Positions 8,170 to 19,784 of a stretch of DNA of 21,533 bases are shown piece by piece. The number at the start of each line of letters is the position of its first letter. The stretch's first letter is position 1. Source of the stretch: a virus. Under the pieces are notes generated by a model, which was given only the letters and a program-made list of their open reading frames with translations, did not search any database and had not been told where the DNA came from. The translations under genes and the position numbers were made by a program. The stretch covers positions 1 through 21,533 of the IMG/VR virus record IMGVR_UViG_3300006810_000478, one strand, 5' to 3'.

Positions 8170-8381
8170 TTATTTAGTGGACATTTATTAGTTTCTATCA
8201 TACTTCTAGTTTTAGCATGTAAGGGACAACCGCATTCACTGCAGATTGTCCCATACATAGAGGGACACTTAGCACATATCGATGCTCTTTCTTTTGCTAT
8301 CTTCTCCACCTCTTCATTCTTCCATACGACATTTCTCCATCCATCGTATATTTCTGCTAATTTATCTTTCCAGCTTTTCAT
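8157..8381 (-). CDS. Small Cys-rich zinc-binding protein
   Basis: This 74-aa protein has a helical N-terminus and a Cys cluster: Cys36-x2-Cys39, Cys47-x2-Cys50-x-Cys52 and Cys67, in contexts such as CAKCPSMYG and CSECGCPLHAKTRS. This arrangement is typical of a small treble-clef or zinc-ribbon protein common in phages of Gram-negative bacteria, whose function is generally not established. Its ATG overlaps the GroEL stop by one base (TAATG), so it is likely expressed with the chaperonin. A structural zinc role is likely from the spacing; a DNA- or protein-binding role is inference. Confidence 0.7.
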   Translation of the reverse strand: MKSWKDKLAEIYDGWRNVVWKNEEVEKIAKERASICAKCPSMYGTICSECGCPLHAKTRSMIETNKCPLNKWEY

Positions 8382-9988
8382 TATTTCATGTTTCCTCTAT
8401 CCATTGTAATAGATTCATGGATATGTTGATCATCAGTATAATATATAACTCCTTCTGTTGTTAATATCATCTTTGCTACAGATGCTGCATTTTCTAATGC
8501 ACATCTTGTTACTTTAGCTGGATCAATGATTCCTTCTTCTATAAGGTCTTTTACCTCTTTGTTTGTTTTAACATTTAAAGGATTCTTACTCTCATGAGTA
8601 AGTCCTGCATTATGAAGTATCTGATCAAATGGTTTAGCACAAGTTTTTAGAATTATATCTATTCCCTCATAAAACTCATTAGGTTTTGATGTTGGCAAAG
8701 CAAACTTACCTGGATGCTTTAAAAACCAGCCACCACCTGGAAGTATACCTTCTGATAATGCAGATTGAGTAGCTAGGATAGAATCTTCTACTCTATCTTT
8801 TCTTTCCTTTCTTTCTATGTCAGAACCACCACCTACATATACAGTAGCTATTCCACCGAACATTTGAGCATATCTATTTTTATGTCTATCATCAAGACCT
8901 TTTTGAGCATTCTTAATATTTTCCTTAATAGAAAGCTTTCTCTTTTCAATAGCATCAGGATTTCCTTTTCCTCCTATAATAACAGTTTGCTTTCTATTTA
9001 CAATTACCTTTTTAGCAGAACCATAGAAAGTAGATTTAAAACCTTTAGGTGTATCTCCTTTATTATAATCTTGAAATGATGCTCCTGTGATTACAGAAAG
9101 ATCTTCTAAATGAAATGTTCTCATATTAGACATTCCAGGTGGTAACACTGCTGCAGCTTTAATATGTCCATTTCTAACATTCTTTAATAAAAAAGCTAAT
9201 GCTGATTTATTAAGTTCTTCACAAATAATAAGAATAGGTCTATCTTGTGATTGAGCTATCTTAGTTATATGATATGCTTCTGTATCAGAAGATAATTTAA
9301 AGTTAGATACTACAATAAGAGGATTATCTAAAACTATCTCTTCAGTATCAGCTGCTACAATAAAATTAGCATTGATAATAGGTTGTTGCCAAGTAGCACC
9401 TTTAATTGTTTCAATATAACTTTCAGGACTCTCTGTGTACTCCATAAGTACTTGACCATCTTGACCAACCATTCTTACTGCTTCAGTTATAAGTTCTCCT
9501 AGTTTAGGATCATTATTAGCTGAAATAGTAGCAACATGCAATAAACTGTCATCTTCAATATTTACAGGTTGTGATTTATTCTTAATAGCTTCTACTATCT
9601 TATTAACTGCAAATGTAATACCTTCATTTAAATCTATTGGATTTGCTTTTGGATTGATATTAAGGTATTTAATACCTTCTCTAATTATTTCTCTAGCTAT
9701 TACTGTAGCTGTTGTTGTTCCATCACCAGCTTCATCAGCTGTCTTTTGTGCTGCTTCTTTAATAAGCTGTGCCCCTATATCTTGTACAGGATCTTTTAAA
9801 AAGAACTCACTAGCTACAGTTACTCCATCTTTAGTGACTCTAGATTGATTGTAATGTCTTTGTAGAATTACATTCCTTCCTTTAGGTCCCATTGTATAGG
9901 CAACTGTATCAGCTAGGAGGTTTATACCTTTCAGTAACTCCTCTCTAGCTTCTTGTTTTGATATTACACTTCTCTGATCTCCAAACAT
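8381..9988 (-). CDS. groEL: Phage-encoded GroEL-type chaperonin (Hsp60, group I)
   Basis: This 535-aa protein is full length for GroEL (about 545 aa) and forms, by family knowledge, an ATP-driven folding chamber. Visible signatures are YTMGPKGRNVIL (about 31-42), VTKDGVTVA (51-59), EAGDGTTTATVIARE (86-100; Asp89 matches the ATP-site Asp87 of E. coli GroEL), LEDLSVITGA (294-303), GGIATVYVGG (378-387) and DRVEDSILATQ (398-408; Asp402 matches catalytic Asp398), then GILPGGG (414-420). The key ATPase residues are thus retained. It ends MDRGNMK and lacks the GGM-repeat tail of many bacterial GroELs, and the apical domain is divergent (PPGMSN instead of APGFGD). AAGGAG lies ten bases before the ATG, one of the few clear Shine-Dalgarno sites here. 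It follows the GroES-like gene by 22 bases. Confidence 0.95.
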   Translation of the reverse strand: MFGDQRSVISKQEAREELLKGINLLADTVAYTMGPKGRNVILQRHYNQSRVTKDGVTVASEFFLKDPVQDIGAQLIKEAAQKTADEAGDGTTTATVIAREIIREGIKYLNINPKANPIDLNEGITFAVNKIVEAIKNKSQPVNIEDDSLLHVATISANNDPKLGELITEAVRMVGQDGQVLMEYTESPESYIETIKGATWQQPIINANFIVAADTEEIVLDNPLIVVSNFKLSSDTEAYHITKIAQSQDRPILIICEELNKSALAFLLKNVRNGHIKAAAVLPPGMSNMRTFHLEDLSVITGASFQDYNKGDTPKGFKSTFYGSAKKVIVNRKQTVIIGGKGNPDAIEKRKLSIKENIKNAQKGLDDRHKNRYAQMFGGIATVYVGGGSDIERKERKDRVEDSILATQSALSEGILPGGGWFLKHPGKFALPTSKPNEFYEGIDIILKTCAKPFDQILHNAGLTHESKNPLNVKTNKEVKDLIEEGIIDPAKVTRCALENAASVAKMILTTEGVIYYTDDQHIHESITMDRGNMK

Positions 9989-12058: not shown

Positions 12059-12111
12059 GTTTTTTTACTATTTTTTTGTTTTAAGTAACAATTAGATATA
12101 ATATTCCCCTT

Positions 12112-12396
12112 AGCTGGGCTGAAATCTCTATTGCTAGAGCTCCTTTTTAACCTTCAACTTCTATCTAGCCGTTTTGAGCCTACACCAGTTACTTAATCTC
12201 TCTGTCAATTCAGAAGGCTTACTTTTACCTGTAACCAGCCCTAGATGTTATATGAAGGTTGTTTTCGTATCTACCGGGGACAACCTCTCTACTATTTGTA
12301 GATACTAACCCGATGTCTTTGCCTCTAATGATTACCTGGAGGCTGATATTGATACTTTGCAATATTAGGAACTATATTTTACAATTCCTAATATTT
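12112..12396 (+). ncRNA. Candidate structured RNA with interlocked helices
   Basis: This 285-base gap has no plausible gene but many complementary segments. GGGCTG (12116-12121) pairs with CAGCCC (12236-12241), enclosing a CTCTA/TAGAG hairpin (12126-12139). AGGTTGT (12256-12262) pairs with ACAACCT (12280-12286). GTATCTAC (12267-12274) pairs with GTAGATAC (12298-12305). The last two interleave, which is pseudoknot topology or two alternative folds. GCCTC (12321-12325) pairs with GAGGC (12339-12343), and a perfect 11-bp hairpin ends the region. The segment is GC-richer than its surroundings. The plus strand is preferred because G-U pairs such as GAGCC (12176-12180) with GGCTT (12216-12220) are allowed only there, and a weak TTTG-N20-TAATATTC promoter sits at 12075-12106. 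The minus strand remains possible. Confidence 0.5.
12361..12395. terminator. Perfect 11-bp hairpin, probable bidirectional terminator
   Basis: AATATTAGGAA (12361-12371) and TTCCTAATATT (12385-12395) are exact reverse complements around a 13-base loop. A run of six T follows on the plus strand at 12406-12411, after a ten-base spacer, and the leftward 40-aa gene stops at 12403. It may end the leftward four-gene cassette, the candidate RNA to its left, or both. The 5' arm can alternatively join a smaller ATATTG/CAATAT hairpin (12346-12351 with 12360-12365), so the two structures exclude each other. Confidence 0.55.
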
Positions 12397-12402
12397 ATAC
12401 GA

Positions 12403-12525
12403 TTATTTTTTAGAAAGGTTGTATTTAATCCATTCTTCTTTATCTTTTTCCCATACCCCTGTTAATTCTGGATGAAACTCCCAGAACATCCCAGAGTTTA
12501 GTAACTTTATATAATCTTCTTTCAT
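12403..12525 (-). CDS. Very small unknown protein (40 aa)
   Basis: The frame encodes 40 residues beginning MKEDYIKLLNSG and ending NLSKK, with a Trp/Glu/Lys-rich middle (FWEFHPELTGVWEKDKEEW). The ATG overlaps the TGA of the upstream 166-aa gene as ATGA, which argues strongly for translation by coupling. It is the last gene of the leftward four-gene cassette and is followed by a strong hairpin. The composition resembles short phage proteins found at the end of operons; the function is unknown. Confidence 0.6.
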   Translation of the reverse strand: MKEDYIKLLNSGMFWEFHPELTGVWEKDKEEWIKYNLSKK

Positions 12526-13022
12526 AATCCTATCATTTTAAGAACTTTCTTTAGTTCTGATTTGTTTTTAATATACCCATTAAATAACTGTGTCTCTGGT
12601 CTTTCTTCGTCTATTCCAACCCTTTTAATCTTTTGTAGAAACAATATACATCTTGCGTCATGTCTGTAGTATGCAAGATATAAAGTGTCTAGTTCAGTAT
12701 GGTGAGGAAATAAGGGTTTTACTAAATCTAATCTATATAAATAAGTATCACCAAACTGTTCCTTCCTCATTATAAATCCCAAACTCTCTATATCTTCTCT
12801 GTCTAGGTATTTTACTCTACATCTATCAATATCTTTTTCTAGATATTTAAGCCCTAGTTTAGTAGAAGCGTTACCTAAAGCACAATCATTAGGGTAAGTA
12901 CATCCTATCCAAGCAGGTCCATCATATTGCATGAAATCATCATTATCCTCTTTCATTCTACGTTCATACTCAAACCCTACGTGAAACTCTTCTATTTCTG
13001 GTGTGTAGTATTTATTCTCCAT
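12522..13022 (-). CDS. Conserved-looking phage protein of unknown function (166 aa)
   Basis: This 166-aa protein begins with a Tyr/Glu-rich segment (YYTPEIEEFHVGFEYE, residues 5-20) that I associate with small hypothetical proteins of Bacteroidota phages and prophages. Later parts alternate charged helices with strands (FGDTYLYRLDLVKPLFPH) and the end is Lys-rich (ELKKVLKMIGL). No catalytic motif is visible. It is the largest member of the leftward cassette. It overlaps the preceding 57-aa gene by 31 bases and the following 40-aa gene by 4. Confidence 0.75.
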   Translation of the reverse strand: MENKYYTPEIEEFHVGFEYERRMKEDNDDFMQYDGPAWIGCTYPNDCALGNASTKLGLKYLEKDIDRCRVKYLDREDIESLGFIMRKEQFGDTYLYRLDLVKPLFPHHTELDTLYLAYYRHDARCILFLQKIKRVGIDEERPETQLFNGYIKNKSELKKVLKMIGL

Positions 13023-13165: not shown

Positions 13166-13295
13166 CTGTGTCTGTATTATTTAATTCCCCTATTGTTAAA
13201 TCAAGTCTAGGTTCATTCTTTTCTAACCATTCTTCTAAAGCATCCACCATAGGATTTTTTAAACTATCATTAGTATTATCATCTTTATTTTCCAT
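13155..13295 (-). CDS. First gene of the leftward cassette, acidic 46-aa protein
   Basis: The frame encodes 46 residues, very acidic at both ends (MENKDDNTND and NNTDTDDN) with a helical middle containing DALEEWLEKNEPRLDL. It opens the leftward cassette directly beside the divergent control region. A TAACTTTA box, close to TAnnTTTG, lies only 5 bases upstream of the ATG (13307-13300), so an mRNA started there would have almost no leader. I cannot assign a function. Confidence 0.5.
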   Translation of the reverse strand: MENKDDNTNDSLKNPMVDALEEWLEKNEPRLDLTIGELNNTDTDDN

Positions 13296-13441
13296 AGTGT
13301 AAAGTTACGAAAAATTATTTTTTAAAAAAATTTTTTTGTCGATGAATTTGTGGAGTATCTATAAAAAACCACCCCTACTAAATACTACGGAGAGGGTACC
13401 CCCGTGCTTTAAAGAGGTACCTTATTTTAAACTATAAAGCT
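13296..13441. promoter_or_regulatory. Divergent control region between leftward and rightward genes
   Basis: Transcription diverges here. The left half (13309-13338) is almost pure A/T with phased A- and T-tracts, likely curved DNA. TAACTTTA (13307-13300, minus strand) resembles the -7 box for leftward genes. On the plus strand TTTG (13335-13338) is followed 21 bases later by TATAAAAA, a poor match. The right half holds two GGTACC palindromes, in AGAGGGTACC (13391-13400) and AGAGGTACC (13412-13420), which could be an operator pair, plus an ACGG/CCGT mini-hairpin (13387-13405). It ends in the standard leader TTAAACTATAAAGCTATG. Confidence 0.45.
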
Positions 13442-13678
13442 ATGAACTTTACTAAATTTTTATTACAAGAGGTTACTAATCACACAAATGGAGAGGTTTC
13501 TCAAAGAATAATGGTAGCAACTGATACTAATCAGCTTATCAGACTATTTCACCCTAATCACACTCTTGAGGACATCAAGAAAGATGCGGACAGCATCAGA
13601 AAGAGTTTGGTTGTAGGAGAGAGTGAGTATGGCAAATTTGCTTACATACCATTAGCAATCACATTGGAAGAGTTTTAA
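13442..13678 (+). CDS. First rightward gene, unknown 78-aa protein
   Basis: This 78-aa protein starts MNFTKFLLQEV and contains a strand RIMVATDTNQLIRLFHPNH, a helix TLEDIKKDADSIRKSL and a final strand YGKFAYIPLAITLEEF, so it looks like a small compact alpha/beta domain. I do not recognise its family. Its base composition is less AT-rich than that of the tiny genes to its right. It follows a typical leader (TAAACTATAAAGCTATG) and is itself followed by a UUCG-capped hairpin. As the first gene after the divergent region, it may be expressed early. Confidence 0.7.
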   Translation: MNFTKFLLQEVTNHTNGEVSQRIMVATDTNQLIRLFHPNHTLEDIKKDADSIRKSLVVGESEYGKFAYIPLAITLEEF

Positions 13679-13688
13679 TAACTCTTTC

Positions 13689-13704
13689 AATCCCTTCGGG
13701 GATT
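13689..13704 (+). terminator. UUCG-capped hairpin after the first rightward gene
   Basis: AATCCC (13689-13694), loop TTCG, GGGATT (13699-13704) form a perfect 6-bp stem with the very stable C(UUCG)G loop, ten bases after the stop codon. Only a short broken T-run (TTTGCTCT) follows, so it may be a weak terminator or an mRNA 3'-end stabiliser. A second hairpin follows at once: TGTACA (13720-13725) with TGTACA (13733-13738). Confidence 0.5.
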
Positions 13705-13766
13705 TGCTCTAATTAACAGTGTACAGGATAAGTGTACATAATAATAATTACTTAAACTATAATGCT

Positions 13767-13880
13767 ATGAAAGATTTAAAAGAATATGTACCTTATGTGT
13801 ACAAATGTAAAAAGATTACTATTGATGCTGTAACAGGATGTGCAAGTCCTTATTCTCCAAGAGAGAAGCACAATAAGTAA
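13767..13880 (+). CDS. Very small unknown protein (37 aa)
   Basis: The frame encodes 37 residues, beginning MKDLKEYVPYVYKCKK, with two Cys and a basic end (SPREKHNK). It is supported by the standard leader TTAAACTATAATGCTATG directly before the ATG. Its stop lies six bases before the closing helix of the large structured RNA, so the two could share a transcript. It may be a short peptide gene or a leader peptide for the RNA; no function is recognisable. Confidence 0.5.
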   Translation: MKDLKEYVPYVYKCKKITIDAVTGCASPYSPREKHNK

Positions 13881-13886
13881 AATAAT

Positions 13887-14372
13887 GAAATACTACTAAA
13901 TTTAATTGTATCTATGATACTCTTATTGATGAACAGTAAAGGTTGTGTTAACATAACGCACAATATCTCATAGGTGTGAAGAACCTTGTAGTATTTCTAT
14001 TATAATCAATTAAAGTTTATGAGGTCTAAAAGGCATAAGGACTGCGTGTACACATAATGCTATATATCTTCTATTAACCAAGTAAGATGTAGAATATTAG
14101 GGTGTTCAGATAAAGACTAGTCTATGAGGTTGCTGAAAAACATTTAGCTTATGCTATCTAAAACAACTAATTGACTCTGTGGTGGAGGTTGGAACAGGTA
14201 ATTCAGAAGATAATACTTTAATTGATTAAACTTAGGTGTAACACACAGCCTCAATAAATGTGTGATGAGTATGTATTATCAGGATACATACAAGATAACC
14301 CAAGTTCTAATGTAAATGATTTAAACACGGAGTTGTAGCTACTAAGGTTGTAAGCCCTTAATTATTTACATT
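13887..14372 (+). ncRNA. Large four-domain structured RNA of unknown family
   Basis: This 486-base stretch has no credible gene and folds by inspection into four abutting domains. Domain 1: GAAATACTAC (13887-13896) with GTAGTATTTC (13988-13997), holding GTATC/GATAC (13908-13920) and AAGGTT/AACCTT (13939-13944, 13982-13987). Domain 2: a perfect 14-bp helix TAATCAATTAAAGT (14003-14016) with 14215-14228, holding GCATAAG with CTTATGC. Domain 3: AACTT-A-GGT (14229-14237) with ACC-C-AAGTT (14298-14306), holding two hairpins, CACACA/TGTGTG (14242-14264) and GTATGTAT/ATACATAC (14269-14291). Domain 4: AATGTAAAT (14309-14317) with ATTTACATT (14364-14372). Gaps between domains are 5, 0 and 2 bases. Size and multi-domain form recall large phage or bacterial RNAs such as GOLLD or ROOL, but I see no basis for equating it with them. 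Confidence 0.7.
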
Positions 14373-14415
14373 TTGACTTATTAGAGGTATTATTAACTTA
14401 TTAAACTAAAGAATT

Positions 14416-14601
14416 ATGATAGGAATATATGCAGGGATAGCAATTATCCTGTTTGGAATAGTTATATTAGGATGTTTTAAAACATTAGAGTATATAGATG
14501 ATAGATATAATTTAAATTATGCAATGTCTCTATTCATTTTTATAATGTACTGGGGAGTAATAATATCTATAGGAGGTATTATTTATGAATTATTAAATTA
14601 A
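14416..14601 (+). CDS. Small membrane protein, two transmembrane segments (61 aa)
   Basis: The 61-aa product has two hydrophobic segments, IYAGIAIILFGIVILGCF (about 4-21) and SLFIFIMYWGVIISIGGIIY (about 38-57), joined by a charged loop TLEYIDDRYNLN. It would be a hairpin in the host inner membrane. It is preceded by TTAAACTAAAGAATTATG and followed 11 bases later by a second membrane gene with the identical leader. Small phage membrane proteins often act in lysis or superinfection exclusion, but nothing here decides between these. Confidence 0.65.
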   Translation: MIGIYAGIAIILFGIVILGCFKTLEYIDDRYNLNYAMSLFIFIMYWGVIISIGGIIYELLN

Positions 14602-14612
14602 ACTAAAGAATT

Positions 14613-14777
14613 ATGAAGAATATATTTACACTACTAATGATGATTATATTTATTGCAAGTATAGTATCATTTGTTACAGAAGCAATTAAAGGAGTATTGT
14701 TTCACGAAGCTTTTTGGTCTATCTGTGGATGGGGTTCAGCATTAATCATGCATCTTAAGGAAATTAAAGAGGAATAG
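14613..14777 (+). CDS. Small membrane protein (54 aa)
   Basis: The 54-aa product starts MKNIFTLLMMIIFIASIVSF, a long hydrophobic segment that could be an anchor or uncleaved signal, and has a second Trp/Gly-rich hydrophobic stretch (FWSICGWGSALIMHL, about 34-48) and a charged tail KEIKEE. The leader AACTAAAGAATT before its ATG is the same as that of the preceding gene. The pair may be an operon of membrane proteins. Function unknown. Confidence 0.6.
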   Translation: MKNIFTLLMMIIFIASIVSFVTEAIKGVLFHEAFWSICGWGSALIMHLKEIKEE

Positions 14778-17405: not shown

Positions 17406-17431
17406 TTGGTAGTTTAGATTATATATAAAGG

Positions 17432-17459
17432 GAGGGGATTAATTTCCCCTCTTTTTTTT
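17432..17459 (+). terminator. Strong intrinsic terminator
   Basis: GAGGGGA (17432-17438), loop TTAATT, TCCCCTC (17445-17451) form a perfect GC-rich 7-bp stem followed at once by eight T. G-U and A-U pairs with the upstream AAAGG can lengthen the stem. It is the clearest terminator in the window and isolates the 154-aa gene from the next. Confidence 0.9.
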
Positions 17460-17476
17460 ATTTAAATTATAAAGCT

Positions 17477-18763: not shown

Positions 18764-18819
18764 AACACCACTCCGTATAGGTAAAGCTTCTATTGTAGAA
18801 GGACTGTAGTTGTGGTGTT
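18764..18819 (+). ncRNA. Compact stem-loop RNA element downstream of the 237-aa gene
   Basis: AACACCAC (18764-18771) pairs perfectly with GTGGTGTT (18812-18819). Inside, TATAG (18777-18781) can pair with CTGTA (18804-18808) with one G-U pair, and CTTCTA (18787-18792) with TAGAAG (18796-18801) around a three-base loop. All three stems are nested, giving one long interrupted hairpin beginning six bases after the stop codon. It may be an mRNA 3'-end element or part of a two-domain RNA with the next segment. Confidence 0.55.
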
Positions 18820-18823
18820 AAAT

Positions 18824-18912
18824 AAATCATCAGAAAATAAATAACTAGAGGTGTTTTTTGATAGATTCGCTCACTAGAGGAATTGACGTTCCTAATAACG
18901 TCCTGATGATTT
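18824..18912 (+). ncRNA. Second structured RNA domain closed by a 10-bp helix
   Basis: AAATCATCAG (18824-18833) is the exact complement of CTGATGATTT (18903-18912). A GACGTT/AACGTC hairpin (18885-18890 with 18897-18902) abuts the closing stem, so the two could stack coaxially. The word CTAGAGG occurs twice inside (18845-18851 and 18874-18880). A T-rich stretch TTACTTTT follows. Together with the hairpin four bases upstream, it fills the whole gap between the 237-aa gene and the next gene's leader. Confidence 0.55.
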
Positions 18913-18937
18913 TACTTTTAATTTAAACTATAAGACT

Positions 18938-19114: not shown

Positions 19115-19256
19115 AACAGACAGTGAAAATAAAACTTTATATTGTCTAACATATTTTATATATGGGTATGAGGTAGAATTATCAATAGTAAACAATGAAT
19201 ATATGTATACTAAGAAACCTATATATCATAAATGTGCAGAAATATGTTATAACTAA
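19089..19256 (+). CDS. Small unknown protein overlapping its neighbour (55 aa)
   Basis: The frame encodes 55 residues, beginning MDPKLFVNETDSENK, with Tyr- and Cys-containing strands (LYCLTYFIYGYEVELSIV) and an end with two Cys (KCAEICYN). The ATG lies 26 bases before the stop of the previous gene and is preceded by ATTATAAATTAAATAATT, a version of the recurrent leader. The small beta-like pattern looks protein-coding, but the function is unknown. Confidence 0.5.
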   Translation: MDPKLFVNETDSENKTLYCLTYFIYGYEVELSIVNNEYMYTKKPIYHKCAEICYN

Positions 19257-19627: not shown

Positions 19628-19784
19628 AATCTCTCTGCTAGAAGATAGACAGATAAACAGCCTTCAATATGAGGATAATAAGCTGTAACCTCTTTATATA
19701 AACCGCTTCCAACGGTGTTGTTTATTGGATAGGTAGCGGTAGTCGAAACTACGTCAGCACTCCAATGGAAAGGACAGAGAGATT
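19628..19784 (+). ncRNA. Structured RNA with pseudoknot-type helices
   Basis: AATCTCTCTG (19628-19637) pairs exactly with CAGAGAGATT (19775-19784), closing a 157-base domain. Inside, ACAGC (19657-19661) pairs with GCTGT (19682-19686) while GAGG (19671-19674), in that loop, pairs with CCTC (19689-19692), an H-type pseudoknot. ACCGCT (19702-19707) pairs with AGCGGT (19735-19740), stacked directly on TCCAA/TTGGA (19708-19712 with 19725-19729). AGT/ACT with a CGAA loop (19741-19750) follows. No gene fits here. It occupies the gap between a membrane-protein gene and the Cys-pair protein. Confidence 0.6.

Follow-up and report, generated by a model that had tools for sequence, protein, structure and literature searches.

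A putative four-domain structured RNA among other candidate structured RNAs of a crAss-like phage

The window, i.e., the whole 21,533-nt stretch of DNA analysed here, is a fragment of the genome of a crAss-like phage, carrying genes for the terminase (phrog_6681), the portal protein (phrog_6547) and a GroEL-like protein (phrog_5725), all on the minus strand; the best named relatives of the terminase are crAss-like phages (about 41% identity), and the GroEL-like chaperonin gene lies at 8381-9988 (minus). Phages of this group are described as highly abundant in the human gut virome (PMC8375218), and, judging from titles and abstracts, none of the open-licence papers listed by searches on RNAs in crAss-like phages reports structured RNAs of the kind considered below. 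Near the junction of two gene blocks, an ORF at 12522-13022 (minus) has matching pieces in L003, the closest relative, where they directly adjoin the terminase gene (2134-1657); this ORF seems to have moved. A plus-strand row of small genes begins at 13442; their place suggests that these are early genes. A hairpin at 13684-13709 shows a weak likeness to the CRISPR repeat family DR25 (22.7 bits against a threshold of 36); other hairpins were seen by eye at the equivalent place in the related phages L161 and L006, and the hairpin is probably a terminator or a processing hairpin. The largest gap between same-strand genes in the window, as defined by a simple gene caller, is the 535-nt gap 13881-14415, most of which is taken up by the focal stretch; the latter begins 6 nt past the stop codon of a 37-aa ORF that bears the C-terminal motif TGCxSxxxPREKHN. 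The features of the region are listed in Table 1.

The original prediction described the focal stretch as four consecutive domains, each closed by complementary arms. All four pairs of arms are present where they had been placed, with lengths of 10, 14, 8 (including one A-C mismatch) and 9 bp, and the gaps of 5, 0 and 2 nt between the domains are correct. Domain 1 contains a candidate pseudoknot, recognised by eye and without covariation, in which 13939-13944 (AAGGTT) could pair with 13982-13987 (AACCTT), the latter abutting the closing arm. In domain 2, an alternative helix 14033-14039/14148-14154 crosses the second helix, and domain 3 contains two hairpins, 14242-14247/14259-14264 and 14269-14277/14283-14291. 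Four copies of the hexamer AGGTTG lie within the focal RNA (13940, 14127, 14186 and 14345), which is uncommon, a 6-mer with at least three G/C being found that often in 5 of 2000 shuffles. The pairing of all AGGTTG copies with the domain 3 loop CAGCCTCA was considered and rejected, as many partners for one site being found in 239 of 600 shuffles.

Table 1. Positions of the focal stretch, its predicted domains, the adjoining ORF and the other candidate structured RNAs in the window
Feature	Position	Strand	Description
Small ORF	13767..13880	+	37 aa, ends TGCASPYSPREKHNK; directly upstream of the focal RNA; relatives in L006 and L161 (81%)
Focal structured RNA (putative)	13887..14372	+	486 nt; four closed domains; arms, no ORF, G+C 0.313
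Domain 1	13887..13997	+	10-bp closing arms 13887-13896/13988-13997; inner helix 13906-13917/13968-13979
Domain 2	14003..14228	+	14-bp closing arms 14003-14016/14215-14228; second helix 14065-14072/14205-14212
Domain 3	14229..14306	+	Arms 14229-14236/14299-14306, 8 positions, one A-C mismatch
Domain 4	14309..14372	+	Closing arms 14309-14317/14364-14372, 9 bp (13 with G-U)
Second structured RNA	18764..18916	+	Module A 18764-18820 and module B ~18824-18916; counterparts in L161 and L166, with comparative support; no homologue of the focal RNA
Third structured RNA	~12110..12400	-	Conserved in L006 (nhmmer match 12129-12397); upstream of minus-strand genes
Structured intergenic segment	16699..16880	+	Conserved in L165; consensus of 16 pairs: 15 unchanged, 1 with a one-sided change
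Closed RNA-like domain	19628..19784	+	157 nt; perfect 10-bp arms; G+C 0.40; no convincing relative

No gene fits the focal stretch, as had been claimed: the longest stop-free run in 13881-14415 comprises 30 codons on the plus strand and 43 on the minus strand. A coding frame across the region, which would speak against an RNA, was not seen: no ORF exceeds 45 aa even with TAG or TGA recoded, and the idea that recoded stops conceal a gene was dropped. On either strand, all three stop codons are in use among the ORFs called under table 11, which is weak support against recoding given that this very table served to call them. No protein remnant was found either, a six-frame tblastn search against the loci compared returning one match with an E-value of 0.78. 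Raised G+C outside genes in an AT-rich genome is a recognised sign of functional RNA. The G+C content of the focal stretch is 0.313, compared with 0.270 for 23 early genes as a whole and 0.152 for their third codon positions alone, and with 0.233 for 14 short spacers; treated as a binomial, this gives z = 9.9 over third positions, 4.2 over spacers and 2.1 over genes, the last being a slight excess only. With 31% G+C against 15% and 23% at third positions and in short spacers, respectively, the stretch does not look like neutral filler.

The closing helices were compared with shuffled and sliding controls. A chain of perfect closing helices totalling 33 bp, as found here, is matched by 2 of 3000 dinucleotide shuffles of the 486 nt, and the total of 33 bp is not attained in any of 390 sliding windows of the same length, none of which is in register with all four focal domains. 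The next-best sliding windows (29 and 28) include those over the RNAs at 18764 and 19628 and also some over no described RNA. Several high-scoring windows (at 19117, 19873, 19981 and 11395) overlap none of the other structured RNAs described here, so the chain statistic is not specific to RNAs. The 14-bp helix had been called far beyond chance, which holds in part: a 14-mer arm within the span limits is rare in 486 nt (4 of 3000 dinucleotide shuffles), but across the AT-rich window the wording is too strong, as a perfect 14-bp inverted repeat with a span of up to 300 occurs in 4 of 40 shuffles of the whole 21.5 kb. A real 13-bp inverted repeat sits inside the terminase gene. The folding energy of 13870-14385 corresponds to z = -2.15, with 3 of 100 shuffles folding equally well, and that of 13881-14380 to z = -1.72 (antisense strand, -1.06); eight coding controls range from -2.07 to +2.59, so that the focal z, at about -2, is like that of some coding controls. 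Strong helices are no more numerous than expected by chance (268 of 600 shuffles). Considering the window shuffles, the modest fold z and the average helix count, the closing arms are notable, but by themselves not overwhelming.

The same figures, namely the weak fold z, the recurrence of the 14-bp repeat in window shuffles and the ordinary number of strong helices, together with the searches that found no relatives of the focal RNA, would fit a stretch that contains no functional RNA at all and represents AT-rich sequence, either intergenic or decayed, whose complementarity is due to chance. We consider this unlikely, as the G+C content is twice that of third positions and also above that of the short spacers, the helix chain is rarely matched by shuffles, the compared loci provide no protein remnant and conserved RNAs occupy other slots of the phage.

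Distant blastn searches with the focal RNA gave no match in either the phage (50,697 records) or the plasmid collection (72,556 records). In 40 terminase-sharing records (40 of the records behind 57 terminase loci), blastn matches with E<=1 were obtained in 33, the best being 3.2e-4 over 29 nt, and these were treated as AT-rich noise rather than as relatives; a laxer blastn search over the loci gave matches of about 55% identity down to an E-value of 2e-4, which were likewise judged noise, nhmmer returning none on the same set at E<=10. An exact 22-mer of domain 4 and a covariance model of domain 1 run on 80 of the collected records both matched the same phage only, and a relaxed domain 1 pattern hit six stretches, one in the same phage and five judged on reading to be chance. 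The covariance model of domains 3-4 found four weak matches beyond the same phage in the 80 records (best E 0.012); the two strongest, both inside ORFs, were not accepted as relatives. A terminase search of genome contigs found no relative. The inside of domain 4 bears a weak likeness to part of the corresponding slot in L006 (6 of 300 shuffles score as high), as seen in a comparison made after an earlier profile had pointed to it. A 491-nt gap in L172 is about as long as the focal gap, and its sequence is not similar (85 of 200 shuffles score as high). The focal RNA is, therefore, an orphan, for which neither sequence nor structure searches gave a convincing relative outside the same phage.

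The original prediction did not equate the focal RNA with OLE, GOLLD or ROOL, and the Infernal/Rfam search agrees, no family reaching the gathering score in the window. At E<=5, the region 13640-14600 contains three weak Rfam matches, all before 13840 and none within the 486 nt, and six scanned loci of the same phage and its relatives gave no match at the gathering score. The GOLLD, ROOL and OLE covariance models had no match at the gathering score in the window or at E<=5 in 13640-14600. ARAGORN found no tRNA or tmRNA in the window, and L171, an extension of the same phage, has no tRNA gene. No ToxI-like array of short repeats was recognised in 13881-14415: a tandem-repeat search at score 30 came back empty, and no direct repeat reaches 12 nt. 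Group I and group II introns were discarded as candidates, there being no Rfam match and the upstream ORF ending at the same residue in relatives that lack the insert. A divergent GOLLD, ROOL or OLE RNA, or a divergent intron of group I or II, would agree with the size range and the elaborate predicted folding, and GOLLD and ROOL are found in phages, often near tRNA islands (PMC12286853), a location that is frequent and not universal. Such an assignment is nevertheless highly improbable for 486 nt that have no Rfam match even at E<=5, in a window without a tRNA gene; as to an intron, the preceding ORF ends naturally, as do its relatives at the same place, and no split exon is seen.

A pattern of the PREKHN motif found three stretches in the viral collection, namely those of the same phage, of the L006 record and of the L161 record, and the same three records were among the matches listed in a protein search with the 37-aa ORF. 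A different RNA occupies the slot in L161: it has three closed domains, shares its first base with the stop codon of the PREKHN ORF and folds with z = -4.95 (0 of 200 shuffles). What comes after the ORF in L006 is a strong terminator-like hairpin and further pairing (z = -3.37). The PREKHN slot thus carries a structured segment in each of the three phages, and it is not the same one. Elsewhere in L006, an element with GGCTA...TAGCC hairpins is repeated at 232-364 and 523-653, the copies being 72% identical and located before two small genes. More long non-coding gaps are present in related phages, e.g., L172 6821-7311 and 11758-12012 and several of 166-594 in L174.

The three-domain RNA in the L161 slot consists of modules A, B and C, and its part 815-968 matches window 18764-18916, where A and B are found together behind a different gene than in L161. 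Module B is also present in L166 (2264-2183, minus), behind yet another gene; that is, it has a different gene upstream in each of the three phages, and in L161 it lies in the focal RNA's own slot. A profile of module A had no match in L166 or L082. The core of module B, AGGAATTGACGTTCCT...AACGTC, is kept in all three sequences, with one base inserted in the L161 loop, although L166 was first noticed through the B-core pattern, so that the identity of its core in part reflects how it was found; module B is also recovered when the L166 contig, fetched by a protein match, is searched with a profile. By eye, the core can form an H-type pseudoknot. In the closing stem of module B, 3 of 10 pairs are changed on both sides between the window and L161, and in L166, as aligned, five of the ten are broken and one is gapped, an 8-bp stem being readable by eye; 15 of 500 shuffles reach these counts and 60 of 500 reach the covariation score. 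In module A, both partners have changed in 3 of 11 pairs and no pair is broken, values reached by 69 of 500 shuffles. The module B model R1, run at E<=1 on the record of the same phage, found one site, corresponding to window 18822-18916, and did not match the focal RNA. Its matches beyond the three known members scored at most 19.5 bits; L187 was rejected as a member, the match being inside an ORF, and the L163 match to the B pattern belongs to an unrelated contig, as read by eye.

The minus-strand RNA at ~12110-12400 is 68% identical to its L006 counterpart over 438 nt, and both bases differ in 10 of its 61 pairs while no pair is broken, which is reached by 2 of 500 shuffles, the structure having been predicted from the same alignment that was used for the pair counts, so that the counts lean its way. 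A comparison with Rfam gave one sub-threshold match only. This RNA is better supported than the focal RNA. The segment 16699-16880 shares an invariant GCCTGG...CCAGGC hairpin with L165, and its pair counts give the pairing little support. The neighbouring RNAs make the focal stretch more credible as an RNA, though they are not its relatives.

The six RNAs measured (focal, 16699, 18764, 19628, L161 and L166) all start between a 1-base overlap with the upstream stop codon and 6 nt after it, and for the four located in the window, the next start codon follows 21 to 60 nt after the RNA ends; the minus-strand RNA, which is outside these six, begins further from the preceding ORF, as judged by eye. 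A sigma-70-type scan of 13200-14700, which may not fit the promoters of the host, gave 13 promoter candidates where 9.3 were expected (sd 2.9), which is no excess, and the same region has no terminator-like site on the plus strand. Since the RNAs start near stop codons and neither a promoter excess nor a plus-strand terminator-like site was seen, the structured RNAs are likely co-transcribed with the upstream genes. A T-tailed hairpin was noticed by eye in the same operon, within 17406-17476.

Such an arrangement might suit a cis-acting element of the early operon that shields the 3' end of the upstream message, insulates genes or drives read-through of downstream terminators, as the put and EAR RNAs do in making RNA polymerase read through the terminators located downstream of them. 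The snug fit of the RNAs between a stop codon and the next leader, the results of the promoter and terminator scan, the T-tailed hairpin and the terminator-like hairpin with more pairing in the L006 slot are all consistent with this possibility, which we regard as the less probable one, as about 500 nt far exceeds what such roles need; the core of module B, which but for one base inserted in a loop is the same behind three different genes, suggests a specific partner, a part that RNA polymerase itself could play.

A structured non-coding RNA, as originally proposed, remains the best reading of the focal stretch, relying on the composition, the lack of a coding frame, the helix chain and the comparative support for neighbouring RNAs, even if the argument from the 14-bp helix had been overstated. 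We suggest, with somewhat less than even confidence, that the focal stretch encodes a large non-coding RNA of four closed domains, a cassette of an early operon that is most likely a trans-acting accessory RNA. Judging from its position, it would be transcribed together with the small gene before it, presumably early, and would end just short of the leader of the next gene; the predicted fold would consist of four closed domains in a row, one or more of which may be pseudoknotted. The RNA may then act in trans early in infection, for instance by binding or mimicking a host factor. A trans-acting accessory role is proposed because the RNAs are replaced between relatives, a neighbouring module changes slots while keeping its core and no protein accompanies the cassette; replacement, slot movement and the conserved core favour a trans-acting RNA over a local message element only mildly. 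Perhaps, and this broader suggestion is offered as a speculative one, the lineage carries swappable large structured RNAs in its early operons, i.e., self-closed, partly pseudoknotted modules that move between slots, give way to unrelated RNAs in related phages and serve as early trans-acting weapons or decoys consisting of RNA rather than protein, the focal RNA being the largest seen in the window. Were the early-operon slots to hold RNAs that can be exchanged, the phage would count RNA among its means of takeover or counter-defence.

The put RNAs of phage HK022 and the EAR RNA of Bacillus are structured elements located in long operons or early regions; they are much shorter than the focal RNA, and antitermination by the latter could be suggested by analogy only. 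The OLE RNA, a bacterial RNA, resembles the focal RNA in being large and ornate (PMC12286853), whereas the focal RNA has no Rfam match to OLE. GOLLD and ROOL resemble the focal RNA in being large multi-domain phage RNAs of unknown function (PMC12286853), and ROOL contains several pseudoknots and has no identified protein partner according to the same source (PMC12286853). Many GOLLD RNAs are longer than 800 nt, in contrast to the 486 nt of the focal RNA, which has neither an Rfam match nor a nearby tRNA gene. A multimeric RNA cage with kissing loops is a further characteristic of ROOL and GOLLD. The pseudo-ToxI of phage PhiTE, a phage non-coding RNA related to a pseudoknotted antitoxin RNA, acts in trans against a host abortive-infection system (PMC3475682). 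It is built on a short repeat with a 36-nt pseudoknot unit (PMC3475682), unlike the focal RNA, which has no repeat array; pseudo-ToxI illustrates the use of an RNA by a phage against host defence (PMC3475682).
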